From assembly GCA_029937975.1 (NCBI GenBank), contig JAPYOW010000018.1, forward strand, positions 1-34,550: DNA of 34,550 nucleotides, in the 5' to 3' direction. The notes beneath the pieces are model-generated. The model searched no databases and had not been told where the DNA came from. It saw nothing but the letters and a program-made list of their open reading frames with translations. A program made the position numbers and the translations under genes. This document shows, piece after piece, positions 24,078 through 34,550 of the stretch. This DNA comes from Methylococcaceae bacterium (GTDB lineage: Bacteria; Pseudomonadota; Gammaproteobacteria; Methylococcales; Methylomonadaceae). Numbering within the stretch: the first letter of the stretch is position 1; each line of letters opens with the position of its first letter.

Positions 24078-24116
24078 CCCCTGTTGCAGCAGACCTCTAC
24101 TGCAACAGGGTTTAAT
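24078..24116 (+). terminator. Terminator of cysI-DUF934
   Basis: CCCTGTTGCAG (24079-24089) and CTGCAACAGGG (24100-24110) form a perfect 11-bp stem with a 10-base loop, followed by TTTAATT. It lies 10 bases past the DUF934 stop and just before the convergent ubiX stop. Confidence 0.75.
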
Positions 24117-24691
24117 TACAAGCCGCCCCAAGGCGTAAACAAACCCTCGACATTGACCCCAAACATATCCAATACCCGGCCAACACCCTCATCGACCATG
24201 GCCATAATTGAATCTGATTTACTATAAAACGCAGGCATGGGCGGAAAGATAATCCCCCCCATCTCTGTGACACTGGCCATATTACGAATATGCGCCAAAT
24301 TCAACGGTGTTTCACGCGGCATAATCACTACTCGCCGTCGTTCTTTCAATGCCACATCCGCAGATCGGGAAATCAGGTTATCTCCATAACCATGGGCAAC
24401 CGCCGACAATGTCTTCATGGAACACGGTGCAATAATAACCCCTTCGGTTTTAAATGATCCACTGGCAATACTGGCAGCTATGTCATTAACCCCATGCACG
24501 ACATCCGCCAAGGCATATAATTCAGCCCGCTCCATCCCAATTTCATACTTTAAATTCACCAAACCGGCGGATGAAATAACTAAATGCGCTTCCCAGTCCT
24601 CCTGTTTTTGTAATATTTGCAACATTCTGACGCCATAAATAGCACCGGTTGCTCCCGTCATCGCAATAACTATTCTCTTTTTTTGGTTCAT
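24116..24691 (-). CDS. ubiX: Flavin prenyltransferase UbiX
   Basis: Makes prenylated FMN, the cofactor of the UbiD decarboxylase in ubiquinone synthesis. The 191 residues begin RIVIAMTGATGAIYG, the FMN-binding start of the family. They continue with FKTEGVIIAPCSMKTLSAVA, the phosphate-binding ERRRVVIMPRETPLN, and a C-terminal IIFPPMPAFYSKSDSI with the conserved Pro and Tyr. ATG 24691 fits the family start; an in-frame GTG at 24715 adds 8 residues. Confidence 0.94.
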   Translation of the reverse strand: MNQKKRIVIAMTGATGAIYGVRMLQILQKQEDWEAHLVISSAGLVNLKYEIGMERAELYALADVVHGVNDIAASIASGSFKTEGVIIAPCSMKTLSAVAHGYGDNLISRSADVALKERRRVVIMPRETPLNLAHIRNMASVTEMGGIIFPPMPAFYSKSDSIMAMVDEGVGRVLDMFGVNVEGLFTPWGGL

Positions 24692-24726
24692 ATCACTACA
24701 TTCATCAATAACCACTCATCTAGCCA

Positions 24727-25680
24727 TCATTGTACCAGTTCTAACATGCTATCCGCTGCATCCACCAAGGCATTGATCATCTCTTCACCACTGGCAATAT
24801 GTCCTGAACCAGCTAACACCTTAAATTCGGCATGGGGTAACTGTTCAGACAAGCTGAGTCCGGCGGCCATGGGACAGACCAAATCATGACGCCCATGCAC
24901 AATAACCGCAGGAATATCTGTTATCCCTGCACAATTTTCCAGCACGTGATTTTCCTCCATAAAATAATGGTTTTCCGCATAATGTAATTCCATTTGCACT
25001 TGTTTCAGCATTTTTTCAGACACCTGTGATACTTGATCATCCGCCTGAAAATCCCCCATCAATGCAACCTGCCCGCCCCAGTCTATCCAGGCTTTTGCCA
25101 CCCGTCTTTGCGTCAATTCATCCGCGGAAAACACAGCATCATACAATATACTGACAATATCTTTCCCCGATTGCGAAGGAACACTGCCTACCAACTGCCG
25201 CCATTTTTCCGGGTATATGCAAGCCACCCCGCCTTCTTTGACAAACCAATCCATATCTTGCTGCCGCGCCAGAAAAACACCTCGCATCACCATGCCCAGG
25301 ACTTTATCGCTATGTTGCTGAGCATATAACAACGTGAGCGTACTGCCCCAGGAGCCACCAAATACCACCCACTTTTCAATATGCAGGTGCTGTCTGATAC
25401 GTTCCATATCTTCCAGCAAATATTGCGTGGTGTTATTTTTCAACTCGCCAAAAGGCTTTGATTGTCCGCAGCCGCGCTGATCCATCAAAATAATATGATA
25501 TTTGCCGGGATTAAAAAAACAGCGATGACTGGGTTTGGTGCCTGAACAAGGCCCACCATGGAGAAAAATGACCGGAATACCCTCTGGGTTGCCGGATTGT
25601 TCCACATAAACGGAATGCGCACTCTCCGTTGGCAGATAAAAATGATGGAAGGGTTCTATGTCTGGATAGAGAGATTTCAT
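24727..25680 (-). CDS. pip: Proline iminopeptidase (alpha/beta hydrolase)
   Basis: Releases N-terminal proline from peptides. The 317 residues belong to peptidase family S33. The nucleophile elbow is GGSWGSTL, DQRGCGQS and LLEDMERIRQHL are typical of bacterial Pip, and HGRHD and GSGH carry the probable acid and His. The oxyanion motif, usually HGGPG, is HGGPC here. The ATG at 25680 is clear. The gene follows the MCE operon on the same strand, after a possible weak terminator. Confidence 0.9.
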   Translation of the reverse strand: MKSLYPDIEPFHHFYLPTESAHSVYVEQSGNPEGIPVIFLHGGPCSGTKPSHRCFFNPGKYHIILMDQRGCGQSKPFGELKNNTTQYLLEDMERIRQHLHIEKWVVFGGSWGSTLTLLYAQQHSDKVLGMVMRGVFLARQQDMDWFVKEGGVACIYPEKWRQLVGSVPSQSGKDIVSILYDAVFSADELTQRRVAKAWIDWGGQVALMGDFQADDQVSQVSEKMLKQVQMELHYAENHYFMEENHVLENCAGITDIPAVIVHGRHDLVCPMAAGLSLSEQLPHAEFKVLAGSGHIASGEEMINALVDAADSMLELVQ

Positions 25681-25745: not shown

Positions 25746-26615
25746 TTACTGTTTTACCGGCGCCAGCAGGTCAGTCATCTGCTTGACTTTTTCATCATCC
25801 CCCAGCAAATGATAAACAGCCCTGGAACGCGTTAAATATTCTTGTGCATCCTGCCAACGCTGCGAAGCTTGATAATATTGCGCCAATTCTAGCAATGTCA
25901 CCGCAATACCCACGCGTGACAGCCCTTGCTTATACAACAACAGCGCCTGTTGCAGTTTTGACTCAGCATCTGCAGCTGCGCCCTGTTGCAACAATAAATC
26001 TGCCTGGAAACGCAGCAAACGCGCCTGCCTATCCCTATTGTTATGGGCTGTCTGCTTTAGGGCATGAGCATAGCGTTGTACCCACAAGAGCTCATCCTGC
26101 TTGCGCCAAAAAGCCAGCTTAACTTGACTGGCAATCGCCGCTATCTGGGTATTATCGGGAACAGAAACAGCCCTGACTCCCTTAAAGACAGGTAAAATTT
26201 CACGCAGCCTATGCGCAGCCTCAGCCCACTGTTTTTGCTGCAATGCCAGCCGCCCATAAAGCAGGCTGATACGCGGCTGATAGTGCTGAAAAAAATCATC
26301 TGTTGCAATCCTGCCCGCCAGGGTTAAATAGTGCTTCGCCGCTGCATCGTCATGTTGGGCTAAGGCGACTTCTGCCAGATTAATGCTGCTAAGCAAAACG
26401 CCTTCCTGATCATCTACTCCCTGATAAAGCAATAATGCTTTATTAAAAAAATGTTGCGCTGACCTCCATTCCGCATCGCCATAAGCTTGCAGCCCCGCCC
26501 TGCTGTATTCTTCCGCATCAATTAACACGGCGGGTCTACGCACGGCCTCAGCCCCACAGCCGGTGAGCAACAGGCCCATGATAAGAAAAAACACACGGCA
26601 ATAAGGCCTATTCAT
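25746..26615 (-). CDS. TPR-like lipoprotein of the MCE operon
   Basis: A 289-residue predicted lipoprotein: a signal helix is followed by the lipobox LLLTGC, with Cys20 and Gly at +2, which favours outer-membrane sorting. The rest is alpha-helical with TPR-like repeats, for example AGLQAYGDAEWRSAQHFFNKAL, GRLALQQKQWAEAAHRL and LAQYYQASQRWQDAQEYL. It overlaps the MCE gene by 8 bases and therefore belongs to that operon. Known MCE systems often include a lipoprotein (PqiC type), but this one is TPR-like and not PqiC-like by eye. A role in linking the MCE protein to the outer membrane is inference. Confidence 0.7.
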   Translation of the reverse strand: MNRPYCRVFFLIMGLLLTGCGAEAVRRPAVLIDAEEYSRAGLQAYGDAEWRSAQHFFNKALLLYQGVDDQEGVLLSSINLAEVALAQHDDAAAKHYLTLAGRIATDDFFQHYQPRISLLYGRLALQQKQWAEAAHRLREILPVFKGVRAVSVPDNTQIAAIASQVKLAFWRKQDELLWVQRYAHALKQTAHNNRDRQARLLRFQADLLLQQGAAADAESKLQQALLLYKQGLSRVGIAVTLLELAQYYQASQRWQDAQEYLTRSRAVYHLLGDDEKVKQMTDLLAPVKQ

Positions 26616-27630
26616 GATTAGAATGCGCGGGGATCAAACGCTGCTGTCTGGGGTTTTGCAGATGCTGCGATAATGGCCAGGTATTTTGCACACTGTCGAG
26701 CAAGTTATCGGTTTTGGATAATGCCCGCCTGAGCTCTATGCTGATACCGGGTAGGTCATGGAGTTCACTGTTAACCAGGGTTATCGCGGTCTTAGCCTGA
26801 GCCACGATCTCATGCAGTTCTTGCACTAACTCAGGCAGCCCCCGAGACATGCCGCGGACATCCTTTACAATAAAGCGGGTATCATGCAAAACAGGCTCTA
26901 ACTGCCGTAATCTCTGCTTGGCAAGGGTCATGATACCTTCGGCCTCAAGCAAAATTTCAGCCCCTGATTTTACCACCACCTTTAAATCCTGCTCCACCGT
27001 CTGGTCAAATACGGCAGCCCCTATGGTGCCGCTGCCGCTGGCAATTTTCTCAATGATGGCATGCACATTACCCAGCGTCTGTTCCAGTTTAGGCAAAATA
27101 GTATCCACTTTCCCTATCAGTTTTTTACTATCGGTGACCTGGATAAGATTCGCTATACTCAATAATAAATCATTCAACGATGCCGTTTCATTGACCGGTA
27201 TGATTGAGCCTGCCGGTAATATCGGCGCATCAAATGAATCAGACTTTATTTCTATCAATGCATTACCAATACTGGTCAAGCGATTAACAACAGCAACCGC
27301 TCCTTCCCTGATTAATGTTCGCCGCCCTTGATAGATCTCAAGCGCCACCCGGATTTGACCTTCCTGCGTATATCGCATATCGGACACCCTGCCAATTTCG
27401 GTGCCCAGTGCTTTCACCAGCGTTCCCTGACTGACCCCTTCGCTACTGTCGATATTCAGATAAAAAGTGACCCTTTGCTCAAACAAGTGCTGATTTTTGA
27501 CACTGATAACAATAAAGCTTAAAAACAGGATAAAACCGGTAAACACAAAAAGACCAACGAGTCGTTCCCGGTAGGTATAGACCGTTTGATGCATATACTG
27601 TCTGTTATTTTTGTCATCCTCTGTATTCAT
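26608..27630 (-). CDS. MlaD-type MCE domain protein
   Basis: Periplasmic substrate-binding part of an MCE lipid transporter, anchored in the inner membrane. The 340 residues have a short cytoplasmic tail, one transmembrane helix (about 24-44) and one MCE domain (about 48-125) with GVSQGTLVKALGTEIGRV and LTSIGNALIEI. A long helical C-terminal region (about 165-310) probably forms coiled coil or tunnel helices. Only one MCE domain is present, as in MlaD, unlike PqiB or LetB. AAGGAC precedes the ATG. It lies between the ABC-like gene and the TPR lipoprotein gene. Confidence 0.88.
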   Translation of the reverse strand: MNTEDDKNNRQYMHQTVYTYRERLVGLFVFTGFILFLSFIVISVKNQHLFEQRVTFYLNIDSSEGVSQGTLVKALGTEIGRVSDMRYTQEGQIRVALEIYQGRRTLIREGAVAVVNRLTSIGNALIEIKSDSFDAPILPAGSIIPVNETASLNDLLLSIANLIQVTDSKKLIGKVDTILPKLEQTLGNVHAIIEKIASGSGTIGAAVFDQTVEQDLKVVVKSGAEILLEAEGIMTLAKQRLRQLEPVLHDTRFIVKDVRGMSRGLPELVQELHEIVAQAKTAITLVNSELHDLPGISIELRRALSKTDNLLDSVQNTWPLSQHLQNPRQQRLIPAHSNHE

Positions 27631-27645
27631 GTCCTTATTCTCATC

Positions 27646-28374
27646 CTACAAAACACTGAGCAAGTCCTGAACATCAGGATCTTCCGTCTGGGTAAATGAT
27701 CGCCAGCCATTGAATGTGATAATTTTATGCTCTGAAATAAAAATAATCTGATCGGCATGCTGTTCTAGAAAATGAATGTACTGCAGCCCGCCAATCATAC
27801 AAACAGCACGATGCTGTGGATACTTACCCAACAATCTGCCCATTTTTTCACGTTCTTTTGCCCCCAGGTCATTAAACGGCACATCCATAATCAACAATGC
27901 AGGATCCAGAATCAAAGCACGCGCCAAAGCAAGCTGTGACTTCTGAAAGCTACTCAACTGTGCAGGAAATGCAGTAAACTCAAATTCACAGTTTAATTCG
28001 CGCAACAGTGCCTGTGCCTTATCCAGCGTTTCCTGAAACGGCCTCTTAGCATGATAAAGTGCGGGCAACATCACATTCATTAACCCATGTTGAGTCGATT
28101 GCAAGGATGCCGTTCCAGAAAGATAGCCTATCTGACTGCGTAACTTTCGCCACTGCAGTAGATTTAATGCTGAAATTGTTTGGCCCAAAACATCTACTTC
28201 ACCGGCTAGCGGTCGATAAATACCCGCCAGCATCAATAAATATGCCCTTAATTGTGCCCGATAAGGGCCGACCAGACAAGTCAGACCCACCTCCGCTATC
28301 TGACAACTCAAAGCAGGGAACAGCAGTTCACTGCCTTCGGCATAAGGTATGGCGTCATGCGCCCTGACAGTCAT
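27646..28374 (-). CDS. Degenerate ABC ATPase homologue (MlaF-like pseudo-ATPase)
   Basis: A 242-residue protein with the overall ABC nucleotide-binding domain order, placed where MlaF belongs. Its catalytic motifs are changed. Walker A is GPYRAQLR (36-43), so the Gly, Lys and Ser/Thr positions hold Arg, Gln, Leu and Arg. The Q-loop region reads IGYLSGTA. The signature is LSSFQ (139-143) in place of LSGGQ. Walker B LLIMDVPF has Val164 for the catalytic Glu, and the H-loop His position is Gly194. The frame is open and the fold-defining hydrophobic strands remain, so this is not simple decay. ATP hydrolysis is very unlikely; a structural role with the permease is inferred. ATG 28374 is used; GTG 28395, overlapping the permease stop as GTGA, is an alternative. 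Confidence 0.75.
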   Translation of the reverse strand: MTVRAHDAIPYAEGSELLFPALSCQIAEVGLTCLVGPYRAQLRAYLLMLAGIYRPLAGEVDVLGQTISALNLLQWRKLRSQIGYLSGTASLQSTQHGLMNVMLPALYHAKRPFQETLDKAQALLRELNCEFEFTAFPAQLSSFQKSQLALARALILDPALLIMDVPFNDLGAKEREKMGRLLGKYPQHRAVCMIGGLQYIHFLEQHADQIIFISEHKIITFNGWRSFTQTEDPDVQDLLSVL

Positions 28375-28391
28375 TGTATTCGCCACCGGAT

Positions 28392-29177
28392 TCACAAGGT
28401 AAAAATAATAAAATAGCCATCTGCAATAAATAAAAACACCAAACACCTGACCACCGCTTTCTGCATTTGTTCAGAAACCAGTACAGATGATTTATCAATA
28501 AGCAGTCCATGAAAGCAAGCGATGGTGCCTATGATCAAGCCAAAAAATATATTTTTGAGCATAAACCTCAAAACGCCATTGAGACTGATCATACTCAATA
28601 GCTCTGTCAATGATTTCTGCGCCGAGAAATCAAAGAAAAAGGCGCTAAAAAACACACCGCTCAAAATCATCAGCGCCGTAAAGTAATAGGCTAACGCCAC
28701 CTGACTAATGACCATACTCAATAACCGGGGAATGACAAAATAATCATTAACGTCAATGCCCATATATTCCAATGGCTCAATTTCCCCCTCCATACGGGTA
28801 TTACCCAGATCAACAACTATGGCAGAACAAGAACGCAGGACCAGAATAAAACCGGTAATCAAAGGGCCCATTTCACTTAACAACAGACGGGCAATAATTT
28901 CGATAAGATCATTATTACCCGTTAATGACTGCATAATATAAATCAACTGCGAAGTCACGCCAATGCCCATAAACAAGGCCAGCAACGATATGATCGCTAT
29001 CGCATTAATGCCGATTAAAATAAGCTGATCCAGAACAATTAAATAGACCGCCCGATTCAGCACATTGCGATGCGGCTGCCAAACCGACACGGCATGAACC
29101 AAAAAACAGACCAAGTCAATAATATAAAACACCAGGTCGATACACTGCCGGCCTAGCCAGGCAAAAAAAATGTTCAT
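28392..29177 (-). CDS. MlaE-type MCE transporter permease
   Basis: A 261-residue integral membrane protein of the MlaE family, with an amphipathic start helix (FFAWLGRQCIDLV) and about five transmembrane segments. The coupling-helix region EPLEYMGIDVNDYFVIPR, which contacts the ATPase in Mla systems, is retained, as is LLSEMGPLITGFILVLRS. ATG 29177 fits the family start. A longer frame opens at 29261, but it would run through the 18-bp palindrome and adds non-conserved residues. It is the first gene of the MCE operon. Confidence 0.85.
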   Translation of the reverse strand: MNIFFAWLGRQCIDLVFYIIDLVCFLVHAVSVWQPHRNVLNRAVYLIVLDQLILIGINAIAIISLLALFMGIGVTSQLIYIMQSLTGNNDLIEIIARLLLSEMGPLITGFILVLRSCSAIVVDLGNTRMEGEIEPLEYMGIDVNDYFVIPRLLSMVISQVALAYYFTALMILSGVFFSAFFFDFSAQKSLTELLSMISLNGVLRFMLKNIFFGLIIGTIACFHGLLIDKSSVLVSEQMQKAVVRCLVFLFIADGYFIIFTL

Positions 29178-29433
29178 GGTTTTTTCTGTTGTATATCGTT
29201 TAGTAACTCGCAATGAATATTCATTGCATAGAATGTCATTTATTTTTAGCCTGCTGCGCATGCAACAGCTGAAAATATCACGCTGCTTATCTGGCTGCTG
29301 AAACCAGACAACATAGCTCGCCGACTCTCAACACTAGCCTGTTATTTGGCTCAACAATATTTATTTTATCTTCTGCCCGCTTCAAAGAGCTGTGCGCCGG
29401 CCATAAAAGTTTAAACGGCGACTGTTTGCACCA
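29178..29433. other. Gap between the TRAP and MCE operons
   Basis: It carries the 18-bp palindrome near the MCE start. I found no convincing terminator for the TRAP operon and no strong sigma-70 promoter. Part of it (29178-29261) can be read as an N-terminal extension of the permease. Confidence 0.5.
29210..29227. promoter_or_regulatory. Perfect 18-bp palindrome, likely operator of the MCE operon
   Basis: GCAATGAATATTCATTGC is its own reverse complement and lies 33 bases upstream of the MlaE-type start codon. Size, symmetry and an AT-rich core resemble TetR/AcrR-type operators. No regulator gene is in the window. Confidence 0.55.
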
Positions 29434-31482
29434 TCAACGCCATAAGCCAATTAAAACAGGAATAACAGCCACTAACAATAAAGTTGTGGCCATTGTGGCC
29501 ATCGGCAATAATATTTTTTCATGTCGATACCAAAAATGGCCCTCCTTTAACACCGATTTTGCCACCTCTTCATGCCCCACCATTTGTCGCGTCAGCAAAT
29601 GATTAAGTGCCACAGGAGGGGTCAGATAGCCCAGTTCAAAAGCTACCAGTGCAATCATCCAGAAGTGCACCGGATCAATACCATTATTATAGGCAATCTG
29701 GGCGAGCGTCCCGGTCACTAAAACTACCGCGCCAAATGGGTCCATAATCATGCCGATAGCCACCAAAGCCAGCCCCAGAAAACTTAAGGTCAGCCAGACC
29801 GATGAGAAGCTAGTCGGGATGTCACTTAACAAACCTGCACGTTCGATCACCCCGCCCATCACAAAGGAAAGTGCCATTAGCATTAACAACGCACCGATAT
29901 GAACACTGGCCTGCGATGAGGCCATCCTGATGGAACATTCAAAGCCTGAACTTGAGTCCTGCCTTTTGCCCTGCCGCCGCCAGGGATGATTCCAGTTTTC
30001 GTAAACAATTAAGCCCAAAATAATCACAGGTAACATAATAGGGGCTGAAAATTCATCCACCCCCACATTCAGGCCGTAGCGATAGATAGCAACTATTACC
30101 ACCACCACGCCGACATAAGGTAACAACGGCAGCAAGGCCCGTGCAGAGGGTCTCAATGCTTCATGCACCGGTGCTATATGTAACTTTTCACGTTTGCTCA
30201 GCCATACAAAAACAAAAAAAACAACGACTGTGGTCATAAAGGTTTTCAAGCCCCAGTTAAACAGCTGGTCGGTGACCACTTCTTTATTCAGGGCGGCGAT
30301 CAGCACCACGAGTAGGCATGGACGTAATACCACGCCGGCACTGCCCGTCATTGCCGTGGTTGCCAATGCCATTTGCCGGCGGGCACCGGCCTGCATCAAT
30401 TGCTCGTAAACAATGGCGCCCATGGCAATAATAATAATGCCTGAAGCACCAGTATAGGCGGTAGGCAAAGCCATGACCAGAATAGCCACAACGGCTAATA
30501 ATTCAGCGGATAGTCGCCAGGGGGTAAAAACCTTAAAGATCAATGTCCCTAATTGCGTGGTTTTTAACAACATTCCCACCCAGATATACAGACCGATATT
30601 AAGAAACAAGCCGGCCTGATCGATTAATAAACTAAAAAATATCGCTAAACCAGCCCAATGCCCCTCTATCAGAAAAAAATAATTGGCGGCAAAGCCGGCC
30701 ATAAAAACATAGAGAGGAACAGCCAACAAGGCATGAAACCAACGCCCGCCCGCTTTAAATGGCTGTTTTGGCCGCAATAACTGATATAAATTGATAGCTA
30801 TCAGCGCAGCAAAGCCGAGTATTAATAGCCAATAGACCCCCGGGTGCTCAACCGTGCTTGCCGATTGATACATACTTTTTCTATAATCCCAGGCCGATAC
30901 CAGTAATAAACCATTGGCCAGAGCTTGCGCCATCGTGGAAACAACATGATCATGGCGGGTGATAATGGGCTTAAAAGCAATATGTTGCTGCTTTAAGGTG
31001 CAGGTCATGGCACAAATAAAAAGCATTAACAATAAAATCAAACGCTGCATTTCAAAGGCGTACAGACTGAAAAAAGCAATGCCGGTTTCCAGAGTACGGA
31101 AAACCACCACCGCCGAGGTGATTCTTAGCTGATTTTGTTGCGCCAGTTGATGCTTATCACTGCAAAGCTGGCGATTGCTTTGCAATGATTCTCGGGCTGC
31201 CTGTGGATTAAAAGGTTCACTTTCAAACAAGGCATCCAATTCATCCAGCTGTTCAGCTTCGGCGGCAAGCCTGACTAATTCACGGGCAATATCCGGATTG
31301 GGATTACAGCCAGGGGTCGGCATATCCGCTCTTAGCATAAAGTAATCCTGCCAGAAATATTCGCCCACATGCAGTAGCCGGCTATGGATTTGTTCCGCAT
31401 TGCCAGCCAGCACCACGGTCAATAACAGGATAAAAACCGGTAATGAACACATCCATTCCTGCAGGCTGCGCAACCTCAGCAT
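29434..31482 (-). CDS. Fused TRAP transporter permease (DctQ-DctM, TatQM-like)
   Basis: A 682-residue inner-membrane permease that moves solutes from a periplasmic binding protein using an ion gradient. The first ~200 residues hold a hydrophobic helix and a periplasmic stretch with ADMPTPGCNPNPDI, followed by more helices, probably the small (Q) subunit part. The rest is a DctM-like large subunit with TGASGIIIIAMGAIVYE, TGSAGVVLRPCLLVVLI and, near the end, LTPPVALNHLLTRQM. Fusion of Q and M matches Treponema TatQM. ATG 31482 is used; in-frame TTG 31569 gives 711 residues with a Gly/Cys-rich extension. Confidence 0.82.
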   Translation of the reverse strand: MLRLRSLQEWMCSLPVFILLLTVVLAGNAEQIHSRLLHVGEYFWQDYFMLRADMPTPGCNPNPDIARELVRLAAEAEQLDELDALFESEPFNPQAARESLQSNRQLCSDKHQLAQQNQLRITSAVVVFRTLETGIAFFSLYAFEMQRLILLLMLFICAMTCTLKQQHIAFKPIITRHDHVVSTMAQALANGLLLVSAWDYRKSMYQSASTVEHPGVYWLLILGFAALIAINLYQLLRPKQPFKAGGRWFHALLAVPLYVFMAGFAANYFFLIEGHWAGLAIFFSLLIDQAGLFLNIGLYIWVGMLLKTTQLGTLIFKVFTPWRLSAELLAVVAILVMALPTAYTGASGIIIIAMGAIVYEQLMQAGARRQMALATTAMTGSAGVVLRPCLLVVLIAALNKEVVTDQLFNWGLKTFMTTVVVFFVFVWLSKREKLHIAPVHEALRPSARALLPLLPYVGVVVVIVAIYRYGLNVGVDEFSAPIMLPVIILGLIVYENWNHPWRRQGKRQDSSSGFECSIRMASSQASVHIGALLMLMALSFVMGGVIERAGLLSDIPTSFSSVWLTLSFLGLALVAIGMIMDPFGAVVLVTGTLAQIAYNNGIDPVHFWMIALVAFELGYLTPPVALNHLLTRQMVGHEEVAKSVLKEGHFWYRHEKILLPMATMATTLLLVAVIPVLIGLWR

Positions 31483-31597
31483 GTGCTTACCCAGGCTGCA
31501 GCAACCGCCATGGCCGCCATCCAGCGACCGCCAAAATGCCCCAAGACGATGAGACTCAAACACTGACAAATGCCGTTTCGGGTGTTATTCATGCCGC

Positions 31598-32611
31598 TTA
31601 TTCTTTATCTGCCGCCGTACATTCAGACTGCTCGGGGGCTTTCTTGCATCGCAGCATTCGCATCAGTTTCAACATTTTGCCGTGATAAATACCTTTATCT
31701 CTTAATCTGATTCTCGATTGCCTAAAAACCTCACGATATTCTGGTTTATCCGCTTCCGGAATGGCCACCCATAATTTGGCCGGGATTCTGCTTTCATATT
31801 TTTTGACTGATTCCATCCCCGCATCAAACCTCCCTAAAACATAGTCTCTCGACTTTTGCCCATAACCTTCAGGGAATTGATCTTTGCGAATCAGCATTTG
31901 CATGGTCAACTGCGCCAGAGAAAAATCAATCACCCCGCCATTAGGCTGCAGTCCTTTATATAACTCCATGGCTTCATACACAATGGCCGGACCGAAAGCG
32001 ATATCAACAGAGCCATTATTAAACTTGCTGTACATAGTGGCAATGGAACTGCCTACTGCAGAGCCACCAATGAAAGCCACCATTTCCTGTTGTGCCTGAT
32101 CCGAATCTAAAATAGCAATGCGTTTACCGGCTAATTCACCCACGGTATCAATCGTACGGTCATTAACAAACATATAGGCTGTACCCGCCGGGGAAATACC
32201 CACGACCTCATACATCTCACTCAGCATCAGTTTTGCCGCTTTTTTTGAACTCAGTGTGGTGATCACCGATTTTAAATGCTGATACGATGGCACAGCACCT
32301 ATTGCATCCAGACTGCCGGTAAAGGCATTAAACTGCCGGGCTCTAATGCCGGTAAAAATCACCGCATCACAAAGTCCGGCTTTAAAATCTTCAGCCGCTA
32401 CGCGTTCATTGGTATAGGGCTTAAGATCCAGCGCCACACCCCAGTTTAATGCCGCTATTTTATAATCTTTCATATAAGAAAAAACCGGGCCGTTGGCGCC
32501 CAGCAAGTCAAACACGCACATCTTTTTATGCATGGCTAACACCGTATTACTGCTGAATAATAACACCAACAGCAATACCCCTGAAGTGGATAAACCCTTG
32601 CCGCTCATCAT
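31598..32611 (-). CDS. Periplasmic solute-binding protein of AdeT/TatP type
   Basis: A 337-residue exported protein: the signal peptide ends at VLA (residue 26). The mature part has a TRAP-receptor-like layout with KMCVFDLLGANGPV, YTNERVAAEDFKAGLCDA and GIRARQFNAFTGSLDAIGA. These resemble the putative solute-binding AdeT1/AdeT2 proteins of Acinetobacter as I remember them. It lies directly upstream of the TRAP permease, which fits a P-component. The ligand is unknown. AdeT names in databases suggest drug efflux, but nothing here supports that. Tandem ATG codons at 32611 follow GACGG. Confidence 0.8.
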   Translation of the reverse strand: MMSGKGLSTSGVLLLVLLFSSNTVLAMHKKMCVFDLLGANGPVFSYMKDYKIAALNWGVALDLKPYTNERVAAEDFKAGLCDAVIFTGIRARQFNAFTGSLDAIGAVPSYQHLKSVITTLSSKKAAKLMLSEMYEVVGISPAGTAYMFVNDRTIDTVGELAGKRIAILDSDQAQQEMVAFIGGSAVGSSIATMYSKFNNGSVDIAFGPAIVYEAMELYKGLQPNGGVIDFSLAQLTMQMLIRKDQFPEGYGQKSRDYVLGRFDAGMESVKKYESRIPAKLWVAIPEADKPEYREVFRQSRIRLRDKGIYHGKMLKLMRMLRCKKAPEQSECTAADKE

Positions 32612-32687
32612 CCGTCACTACCTTGCTCAATTGATAAAAATATCCCGGTCATTGCATCGGTTTAAATTAACTATTTAAAAACACTGC

Positions 32688-33707
32688 TCAAAGAATATCA
32701 TCAATCTCGATAATATCAATATGTTCTACCGGGTCATCCCAAAAAGAGCCCATTTCACCTATGGGGGTACGACTGCCTGTGGCTGCCGTCCACAAGCGGT
32801 CAGAAAATTGTTGCATTTGTAAATAGGCCATCTGATTGAGTAATTGATAGCCTGGATGCTCCGTGCGGCTGATCTTCGCCTGACTCTGCTGACGAATGAT
32901 TTGTTTTACTTTTTCGGTATGGCCCAGCCCTGAATGTACTTGCACCGCCAACACATGACTGATGGTTATGCCTTGTTGGCTACCGGTTTGCAAGGCCTGA
33001 TGCAGTATCTGCATCGGCTGTTTATCTGCCGGTTGATGCCCCGGAATGCTTAACCACAGTGATGCCTGAATTGCCTCGGGGACGCCCCACCATTTATCAT
33101 TGTTTAAACACCTGACCGCCCGGCCAATTTTTGCGCCGATATCCAAAGGGACATGCGCATCTCCGGCAGAAGCAATATCATTCAATAATGCCTGTAAGCC
33201 ACTGATCAGTCCCATTAACCAGTAAAACTCTGCATTATCGTTAGTTAACAAAGGACACTCACCGCCGGGTTCAGCATACCTTAAAGCTAAAGCCTTATAG
33301 CCCTGCCATTGTGTGTGTGCGACCTGACTGAGATAACGTTGCTGGGCAATCCGTGCATCGCGCGCGGCTACAGGATTACCGGCATACACAGCCCGTAGAT
33401 AGCGCAGTTCCTCTTCCCATGCCTTAAATTCAGTACAGCTGCCGGCCATTAAATAAAACAGAATAGCCAGCTGATCGGGTGAGTGGCTGACGCGGGAAAA
33501 ACTGAACAGAAAGGGGGCAAACGATTCCACCATGGCACAACTAAAGTTTATATCCCCAGTGGCCAGGATATAAGGCACCGCTTCATCTTCCGCATAGGCA
33601 ATCAAGGTATTCCCCGTGCCTTTATACAGCAGGCTACAGCCGCTTAACAGCACAGCCCACAGCCCTAAAAAAATCAGTGCAACATACGCTCTTGGTTTCT
33701 TCAACAT
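32688..33707 (-). CDS. TRAP T-component-like lipoprotein (TatT-like)
   Basis: A 339-residue predicted lipoprotein with lipobox LLSGC (Cys24, Ser at +2). The remainder is all-helical with segments such as FLFSFSRVSHSPDQLAILFY, FYWLMGLISGLQALLNDIA and IHLGLGH-like VHSGLGHTEKVKQII. In Treponema, TatT is a TPR-like helical lipoprotein that partners TatP and is thought to bind hydrophobic ligand. Position upstream of the binding protein and the fused permease supports the same role here. AGGGGTGAT precedes the ATG. Assignment rests on context and general shape. Confidence 0.65.
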   Translation of the reverse strand: MLKKPRAYVALIFLGLWAVLLSGCSLLYKGTGNTLIAYAEDEAVPYILATGDINFSCAMVESFAPFLFSFSRVSHSPDQLAILFYLMAGSCTEFKAWEEELRYLRAVYAGNPVAARDARIAQQRYLSQVAHTQWQGYKALALRYAEPGGECPLLTNDNAEFYWLMGLISGLQALLNDIASAGDAHVPLDIGAKIGRAVRCLNNDKWWGVPEAIQASLWLSIPGHQPADKQPMQILHQALQTGSQQGITISHVLAVQVHSGLGHTEKVKQIIRQQSQAKISRTEHPGYQLLNQMAYLQMQQFSDRLWTAATGSRTPIGEMGSFWDDPVEHIDIIEIDDIL

Positions 33708-33934: not shown

Positions 33935-34550
33935 TTAGAATGCAAAACCTACCGATCCACCTAAAGTAAAACCGTCGGTATCAACGCCATCGATATCATC
34001 TGGAGTCCAGTGATAACGACCGTCAAGACCCACAGAAATACCCGCTAACAAATCATAATTAACACCGGCACCAAACTGCATGCCCGTGTTTAACACGGTT
34101 ACCGCATCCGATGGCGGGCTGATGATGTTGATATCTAGACCTAAAGGAATAATCCAAGGTCTTAATTTACTACCGTGCATGAAAGTAATTTTAGGCGCAG
34201 CACTTACTCTTAGCATATTAACTGTTACATCTTCTTGGATGTTCACTGGAGCTCCAAGAACAGCAGTAGTAATTACATTATCAAGACCACTGTCTGCTCT
34301 ATCACCTAATTCAGAATACTCAATCCCTAATTCAATGCCGAAAGACACGCCATCCATCAAGCCGAACAGGTCATTATTGATATTGAAATCAATTCCGCCA
34401 CCATAATAGAAAGCATCTTGATCCATCTCACTGGTCAAAACATCAGTTCCTAAACCAGAAACATCAGCTAAACCTAGGCCAGCAAGCGCAGACGTAGTTG
34501 AACCACGGTTATTATCCATATGCATCCAACCACCACGCACAGAGAACTTA
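33935..34550 (-). CDS. Outer-membrane beta-barrel protein, 3' part
   Basis: The reading frame runs off the right edge, so the true start and signal peptide are outside the window. The visible ~204 residues alternate polar and hydrophobic residues as beta strands do, for example SVRGGWMHMDNN, FYYGGGIDFNINN, VSFGIELGIEYSE and FGAGVNYDLLAGISVGLDGRYHW. The chain ends in Phe (VGFAF), the usual outer-membrane barrel signal. Acidic loops (PDDIDGVDTDG) are present. Its role is unknown. It has its own terminator and is probably transcribed apart from the TRAP operon. Confidence 0.7.
   Translation of the reverse strand, partial: KFSVRGGWMHMDNNRGSTTSALAGLGLADVSGLGTDVLTSEMDQDAFYYGGGIDFNINNDLFGLMDGVSFGIELGIEYSELGDRADSGLDNVITTAVLGAPVNIQEDVTVNMLRVSAAPKITFMHGSKLRPWIIPLGLDINIISPPSDAVTVLNTGMQFGAGVNYDLLAGISVGLDGRYHWTPDDIDGVDTDGFTLGGSVGFAF

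Follow-up and report, generated by a model that had tools for sequence, protein, structure and literature searches.

A seven-gene locus in the Methylococcales joins a TPAT-type TRAP transporter to an MCE block whose MlaF-like nucleotide-binding domain (NBD) protein lacks every catalytic motif, while its reading frame is intact and under strong purifying selection. The placement of a TPAT beside an MCE machine with a motif-less but intact NBD suggests that both work on one job. It may be, and this is the reading preferred here with some reserve, that two systems, TPAT uptake and MCE lipid transfer, serve one hydrophobic-ligand envelope pathway in a marine Methylococcales lineage, with the MCE NBD acting as structure or placeholder.

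The locus lies in the window, that is, the whole stretch of 34,550 nucleotides that was analysed; this stretch corresponds to contig C133 in a draft genome of 2.2 Mb. The first-pass annotation had described seven consecutive minus-strand genes, and ORF and family searches confirmed all seven. The TPAT-type TRAP genes (T-component lipoprotein, binding protein and fused permease) are followed by the MCE block (MlaE, MlaF-like NBD, MCE protein and TPR lipoprotein). The recurrent neighbours of the block are a beta-barrel protein upstream (33935-34540 in the window) and prolyl iminopeptidase and UbiX downstream (24116-25680).

We infer the ligand, the direction of transport, the sharing of a pathway and the role of the inert NBD as follows. 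The T-component lipoprotein would hand a putative hydrophobic ligand on to the binding protein that lacks the Arg, and this protein would feed the fused TRAP permease, with putative import driven by an ion gradient. The complex of MlaE, MCE protein and TPR lipoprotein would move a putative related lipid between membranes, and the MlaF-like subunit, itself inert, would either brace MlaE as a clamp or hold the place of an ATPase that acts in trans.

The TPAT-type half

The T-component (32688..33707, minus strand) is an all-helical lipoprotein of 339 aa by predicted fold. The sequence matched no Pfam family, the TatT family was matched in none of 19 homologues, and the profile of their alignment found no PDB sequence at E up to 1. 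The AF2 model (pLDDT 85.6) is nonetheless predicted to fold like TatT. VIA-align superposes it on TatT (4di3) with Z 19.4 and rmsd 3.5 over 246 residues, followed by Z 19.1 to the TPAT structure 8g52, 19.1 to 3u64 and 14.8 to the sterol-binding BstC (7t1s), the best unrelated chain after these reaching Z 11.9. The Foldseek match to 3u64 is weak (rank 33, TM 0.44 by target, E 0.79), and the fold assignment rests on VIA-align. The earlier label of this gene as TatT-like thus agrees with the fold, with the sequence families silent.

The binding protein (31598..32611, minus strand) belongs to the AdeT1_2 family (PF19582, E 6.5e-90), with a weak DctP match. At the position equivalent to Arg147, the carboxylate-binding arginine of TRAP proteins, it carries Ala166, invariant in 17 of 17 sequences; this placement comes from an alignment to 4p1e, a weak match (E 0.01) whose register is moderately certain. 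According to the available text of PMC4646407, Tp0957, the TatP(T) of Treponema, likewise has an alanine there together with a hydrophobic pocket, and in the available part of PMC5812351 TPATs are presented as probable transporters of hydrophobic molecules.

The fused TRAP permease (29434..31482, minus strand; ORF to 31569) most likely starts at ATG 31482, as judged from homology and a codon check. Its DctM half is recognised (PF06808, E 2e-15, residues 322-702). No family was matched by the N-terminal half, where the alignment of 19 sequences shows a membrane segment with a periplasmic insert, presumably the DctQ half. The genome also encodes two further, ordinary DctM permeases. In several genomes, a tandem duplication of T-component and binding protein (T2-P2) precedes the TRAP permease (L037 11449-14855, L117, L119, L120 and L122).

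The TatT fold, the Arg-less AdeT1_2 binding protein and the TPAT literature together make the TPAT reading of these three genes well supported, and C4-dicarboxylate uptake by this TRAP copy unlikely. The suggestion that both halves suit hydrophobic ligands is supported.

Linkage of the two blocks

The gene-neighbourhood survey that the first-pass annotation had proposed was run on 237 genomes of the family of the window, which were searched for the TRAP permease and for the a-type NBD (MCE-a), the type found in the window. The TRAP permease was found in 19 genomes, the a-type NBD in 16 and both in 14; a TRAP match in G201 (74 bits) and a partial NBD match in G196:C162 (88 bits, 96 aa) were left out of the counts. 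The association is strong by Fisher tests that ignore phylogeny (p ~1e-16 by genome; p 0.003 by genus, with 29 genera). Both blocks lie on one contig in 11 of the 14 genomes, namely all eight carriers of the genus of the window and all three of genus g6, and linkage in that many genomes indicates an arrangement beyond chance. Co-occurrence is therefore not rare within the family.

The association also has its exceptions. A ninth genome of the genus of the window (G006) has neither block, and the blocks are unlinked in G184 (a six-contig genome), G185 and G256. TRAP occurs without MCE-a in G069, G115, G186, G187 and G198; the reverse holds for G144 and G196, two incomplete genomes. A search with the NBD among named genomes returned 14 records from Methylococcales, including symbionts from Iophon and Hymedesmia sponges, the methanotrophic symbiont of Bathymodiolus platifrons and related MAGs, one MAG among the 14 being labelled just Gammaproteobacteria bacterium.

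Several genomes have one block alone or both unlinked, which favours a possible but doubtful alternative: two transporters that work independently and are neighbours through common descent, both perhaps responding to envelope or lipid conditions with different ligands. The gene trees point the same way, as g20 groups with part of g1 in the TRAP tree (support 96) and with g6 in the conflicting MCE tree (support 100). So does a comparison of G001 with G002, where identity is 97% for the binding protein, 95% for TRAP and 82-92% for flanking genes, against 78% for MlaE and 63% for the NBD; at the synonymous level the two differ by 0.16 in TRAP versus 0.68-0.71 in MlaE and NBD. The MCE half was probably exchanged in one of these two genomes, in a recombination-like manner, with the break near the TRAP/MlaE junction (L035, L033).

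Linkage is likewise absent outside the family. TRAP and MCE co-occurred in none of 368 other sampled gammaproteobacterial genomes. TRAP/AdeT1_2 was found in five of the 368, with 16 AdeT1_2 places, and no MlaE or MCE was detected around those 16 places or the five TRAP genes, in a scan in which four control loci were positive and some stretches end at contig ends.

Against independence stands the persistence of proximity through three gene orders (T-P-QM-MCE in g1; T-MCE-P-QM in G013 and G070; two divergent blocks in G071) and through a relocation. In G001, six genes from binding protein to TPR lipoprotein (SBP-TRAP-MlaE-NBD-MCE-TPR) lie together at a new site between unrelated genes on contig C55, the T-component remaining on contig C16 beside its usual neighbour, the beta-barrel gene. 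In G013, moreover, T-component and MlaE are directly adjacent, the MlaE start abutting the stop codon of the T-component. Short gaps between TRAP and MlaE, of 10 nt in G008, 40 in G002, 50 in G001 and 71 in G007, speak for the preferred reading, and the long ones in G004 (752 nt) and G003 (1189 nt) speak against it. So does that of the window, with 256 nt from the TRAP stop to the MlaE start, in which a simple scan, as weak evidence, found no promoter-like or minus-strand terminator-like site.

The MCE block and its inert NBD

The MlaE-family permease (28392..29177, minus strand; ORF to 29261; PF02405, E 6e-43) starts at ATG 29177 by homology and codon check and is 78-81% identical to its three closest relatives. 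The NBD gene (27646..28395, minus strand; ORF to 28446; ABC_tran PF00005, E 5e-10) starts, by the same checks, at GTG 28395 and not at 28446. The MCE protein (26608..27630, minus strand) carries an MlaD domain (PF02470, E 4e-10), which was found in 25 of 25 homologues, and probably a long helical C-terminal tail. The TPR lipoprotein (25746..26615, minus strand; TPR_12, E 1e-11) has a cysteine at residue 20 that is invariant in 22 of 22 sequences. The block is tightly packed, with overlaps of 4 nt between the NBD start and the MlaE stop and of 8 nt between the TPR lipoprotein and MCE genes; from these overlaps and the protein families, MlaE permease and MCE-domain protein share one operon.

The NBD model (pLDDT 87.9) has MlaF structures as its best Foldseek matches (6xgy, E 6.9e-17; 6xbd, TM 0.87). 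Of the motifs that define a working ABC ATPase, the NBD of the window has kept neither Walker A nor the LSGGQ signature, and the H-loop and the catalytic Glu that should follow the Walker B Asp are gone as well. None of the 16 a-type orthologues has a Walker A. A canonical MlaF on contig C95 of the same genome, which served as positive control, has its motifs intact and belongs to a canonical MlaF/MlaE/MCE set. The gene had been called a pseudo-ATPase, and this was right. Its frame is intact and under strong purifying selection, dN/dS being 0.06-0.15 in seven pairs, ratios that are rough since most of these pairs are close to saturated at synonymous sites; the TRAP gene, for comparison, has 0.08-0.14 in five unsaturated pairs.

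The canonical set in the same genome lends something to an unlikely variant, in which the MCE complex is driven by ATP in trans, through the MlaF of contig C95 or another NBD, with the pseudo-NBD as placeholder or regulator. A precedent for a shared ATPase with a permease-binding competitor exists: in the available text of PMC10517005, the Mce systems of mycobacteria all share a single MceG, which is displaced by Mce1N, a protein that binds the permease. Against this variant stand the 4-nt overlap of the pseudo-NBD gene with MlaE and the conservation of the two together.

MCE operons with inert NBDs extend beyond those with a TRAP neighbour. A second clade of MlaE/NBD/MCE/TPR loci, unlinked to TRAP and with equally degenerate NBDs (L041-L043, L107-L113), was observed in the family. 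More distant relatives of the operon (L145-L150) lose the NBD motifs by degrees, from a Walker A still in place together with DE down to no motif. The second clade, or b-type set, occurs in 10 of the 237 genomes and lacks Walker A in all 10, its NBDs being 28-33% identical to that of the window in the three compared directly. All four genes were seen in five of the 10 loci (G033, G005, G006, G256 and G190); three are cut by contig ends (G062, G198 and G194), G061 shows no MCE or TPR match and G200 no MlaE match. In seven of the 10 genomes, the TRAP permease of the window finds no counterpart at E 1e-20.

In an even sample of 369 genomes of the class, six others carry MlaE-NBD-MCE-TPR operons with no TRAP within the stretch examined. 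Two of these (G300 and G343) retain Walker A, which is changed or missing in the rest, the N-terminal half being uncertain in G594, and LSGGQ was found in none of the six. From this graded motif state in operons without TRAP, NBD degeneration looks gradual or repeated and independent of TRAP.

These operons bear on what could pay for lipid transfer. It is very improbable that TPAT and MCE physically cooperate in a composite trans-envelope lipid machine, with the NBD as a non-hydrolysing clamp and the ion gradient, through TRAP, paying instead of ATP. The model of the first-pass annotation, in which the MCE complex is driven by the TRAP ion gradient or uses it in place of ATP, the two forming one combined machine, is likewise very improbable. 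The inert NBD and the linkage in 11 of 14 genomes speak for it, but related inert-NBD operons in TRAP-less genomes (seven of the 10 b-type) show that TRAP is not a general power source, the a-type blocks are unlinked in three genomes and no co-occurrence was seen in the 368 genomes outside the family. TRAP permeases are not known to couple mechanically to MlaE. What stands of the combined pathway is that, in this lineage, its two halves are found in the same genomes and have remained linked; a TRAP permease driving the MCE part is not supported.

Decay of the MCE half, to which the loss of every catalytic motif of the NBD might point, is scarcely credible and was rejected as an explanation of the inert NBD, given open frames, dN/dS values that resemble those of the TRAP gene and the retention of the remaining genes of the block.

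The locus bears on the open question of lipid traffic between membranes, in which an ATPase is assumed to power MCE systems of the MlaE type. The inert MlaF-fold clade raises the question of what powers MCE lipid transfer. A whole clade that keeps an inert MlaF-fold subunit, together with relatives with an intact Walker A, forms a natural series on NBD roles besides hydrolysis and on alternative power sources for lipid transfer, and the linkage to TPAT in marine methanotrophs offers a concrete candidate partner for the MCE complex.

Comparison with known systems

The locus resembles the TPAT of Treponema pallidum (TatT/TatP(T)/TatQM) in the fold of its T-component (Z 19.4, at ~8% identity to TatT), in the alanine that replaces the carboxylate-binding arginine and in the T-P-QM gene set with a fused permease, the DctQ half of which is presumed. 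It differs in having an MCE block, none being described with TPAT in the available text of PMC5812351. A TPAT-like cluster is reported in the methanotroph Methylocaldum in the accessible part of PMC11931723, and TPAT alone is therefore not new. For TPAT combined with MCE, no report was found among the open-access papers listed, an absence that carries little weight.

BstABC, the lipid (sterol) transport system of Methylococcus (PMC10942540, available text), is similar in that a protein of the T-component fold occurs in a methanotroph (7t1s, Z 14.8). The systems differ in their partners, BstB being PhnD-like and BstA an RND protein in that text, whereas the locus has TRAP and MCE. A scan of the window proteins recognised no sterol synthesis gene. 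A squalene-hopene-cyclase-family match occurs in 19 of 19 genomes tested (e.g. G000:C16:5361-6323), some with a second weaker cyclase, which could only conjecturally be called an oxidosqualene cyclase; in the genome of the window the one strong match has no weaker companion. Sterol as the sole ligand was put aside, since in G000-G005, G007 and G256 one strong cyclase match stands without a weaker second.

With MlaFEDB, the locus shares an MlaE permease, an MlaF-fold NBD and an MlaD/MCE domain. Unlike MlaFEDB, its NBD has no catalytic motifs, its operon ends with a TPR lipoprotein and its MCE protein (340 aa) has a longer tail. Among the matches listed in the open-access literature no report of an inert MlaF clade was found, which is likewise weak as an absence. 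Finally, the mycobacterial Mce systems with their shared MceG provide the case, in the available text of PMC10517005, of permease/MCE operons whose ATPase can come from another locus; in contrast to them, the operon described here encodes its own inert NBD.
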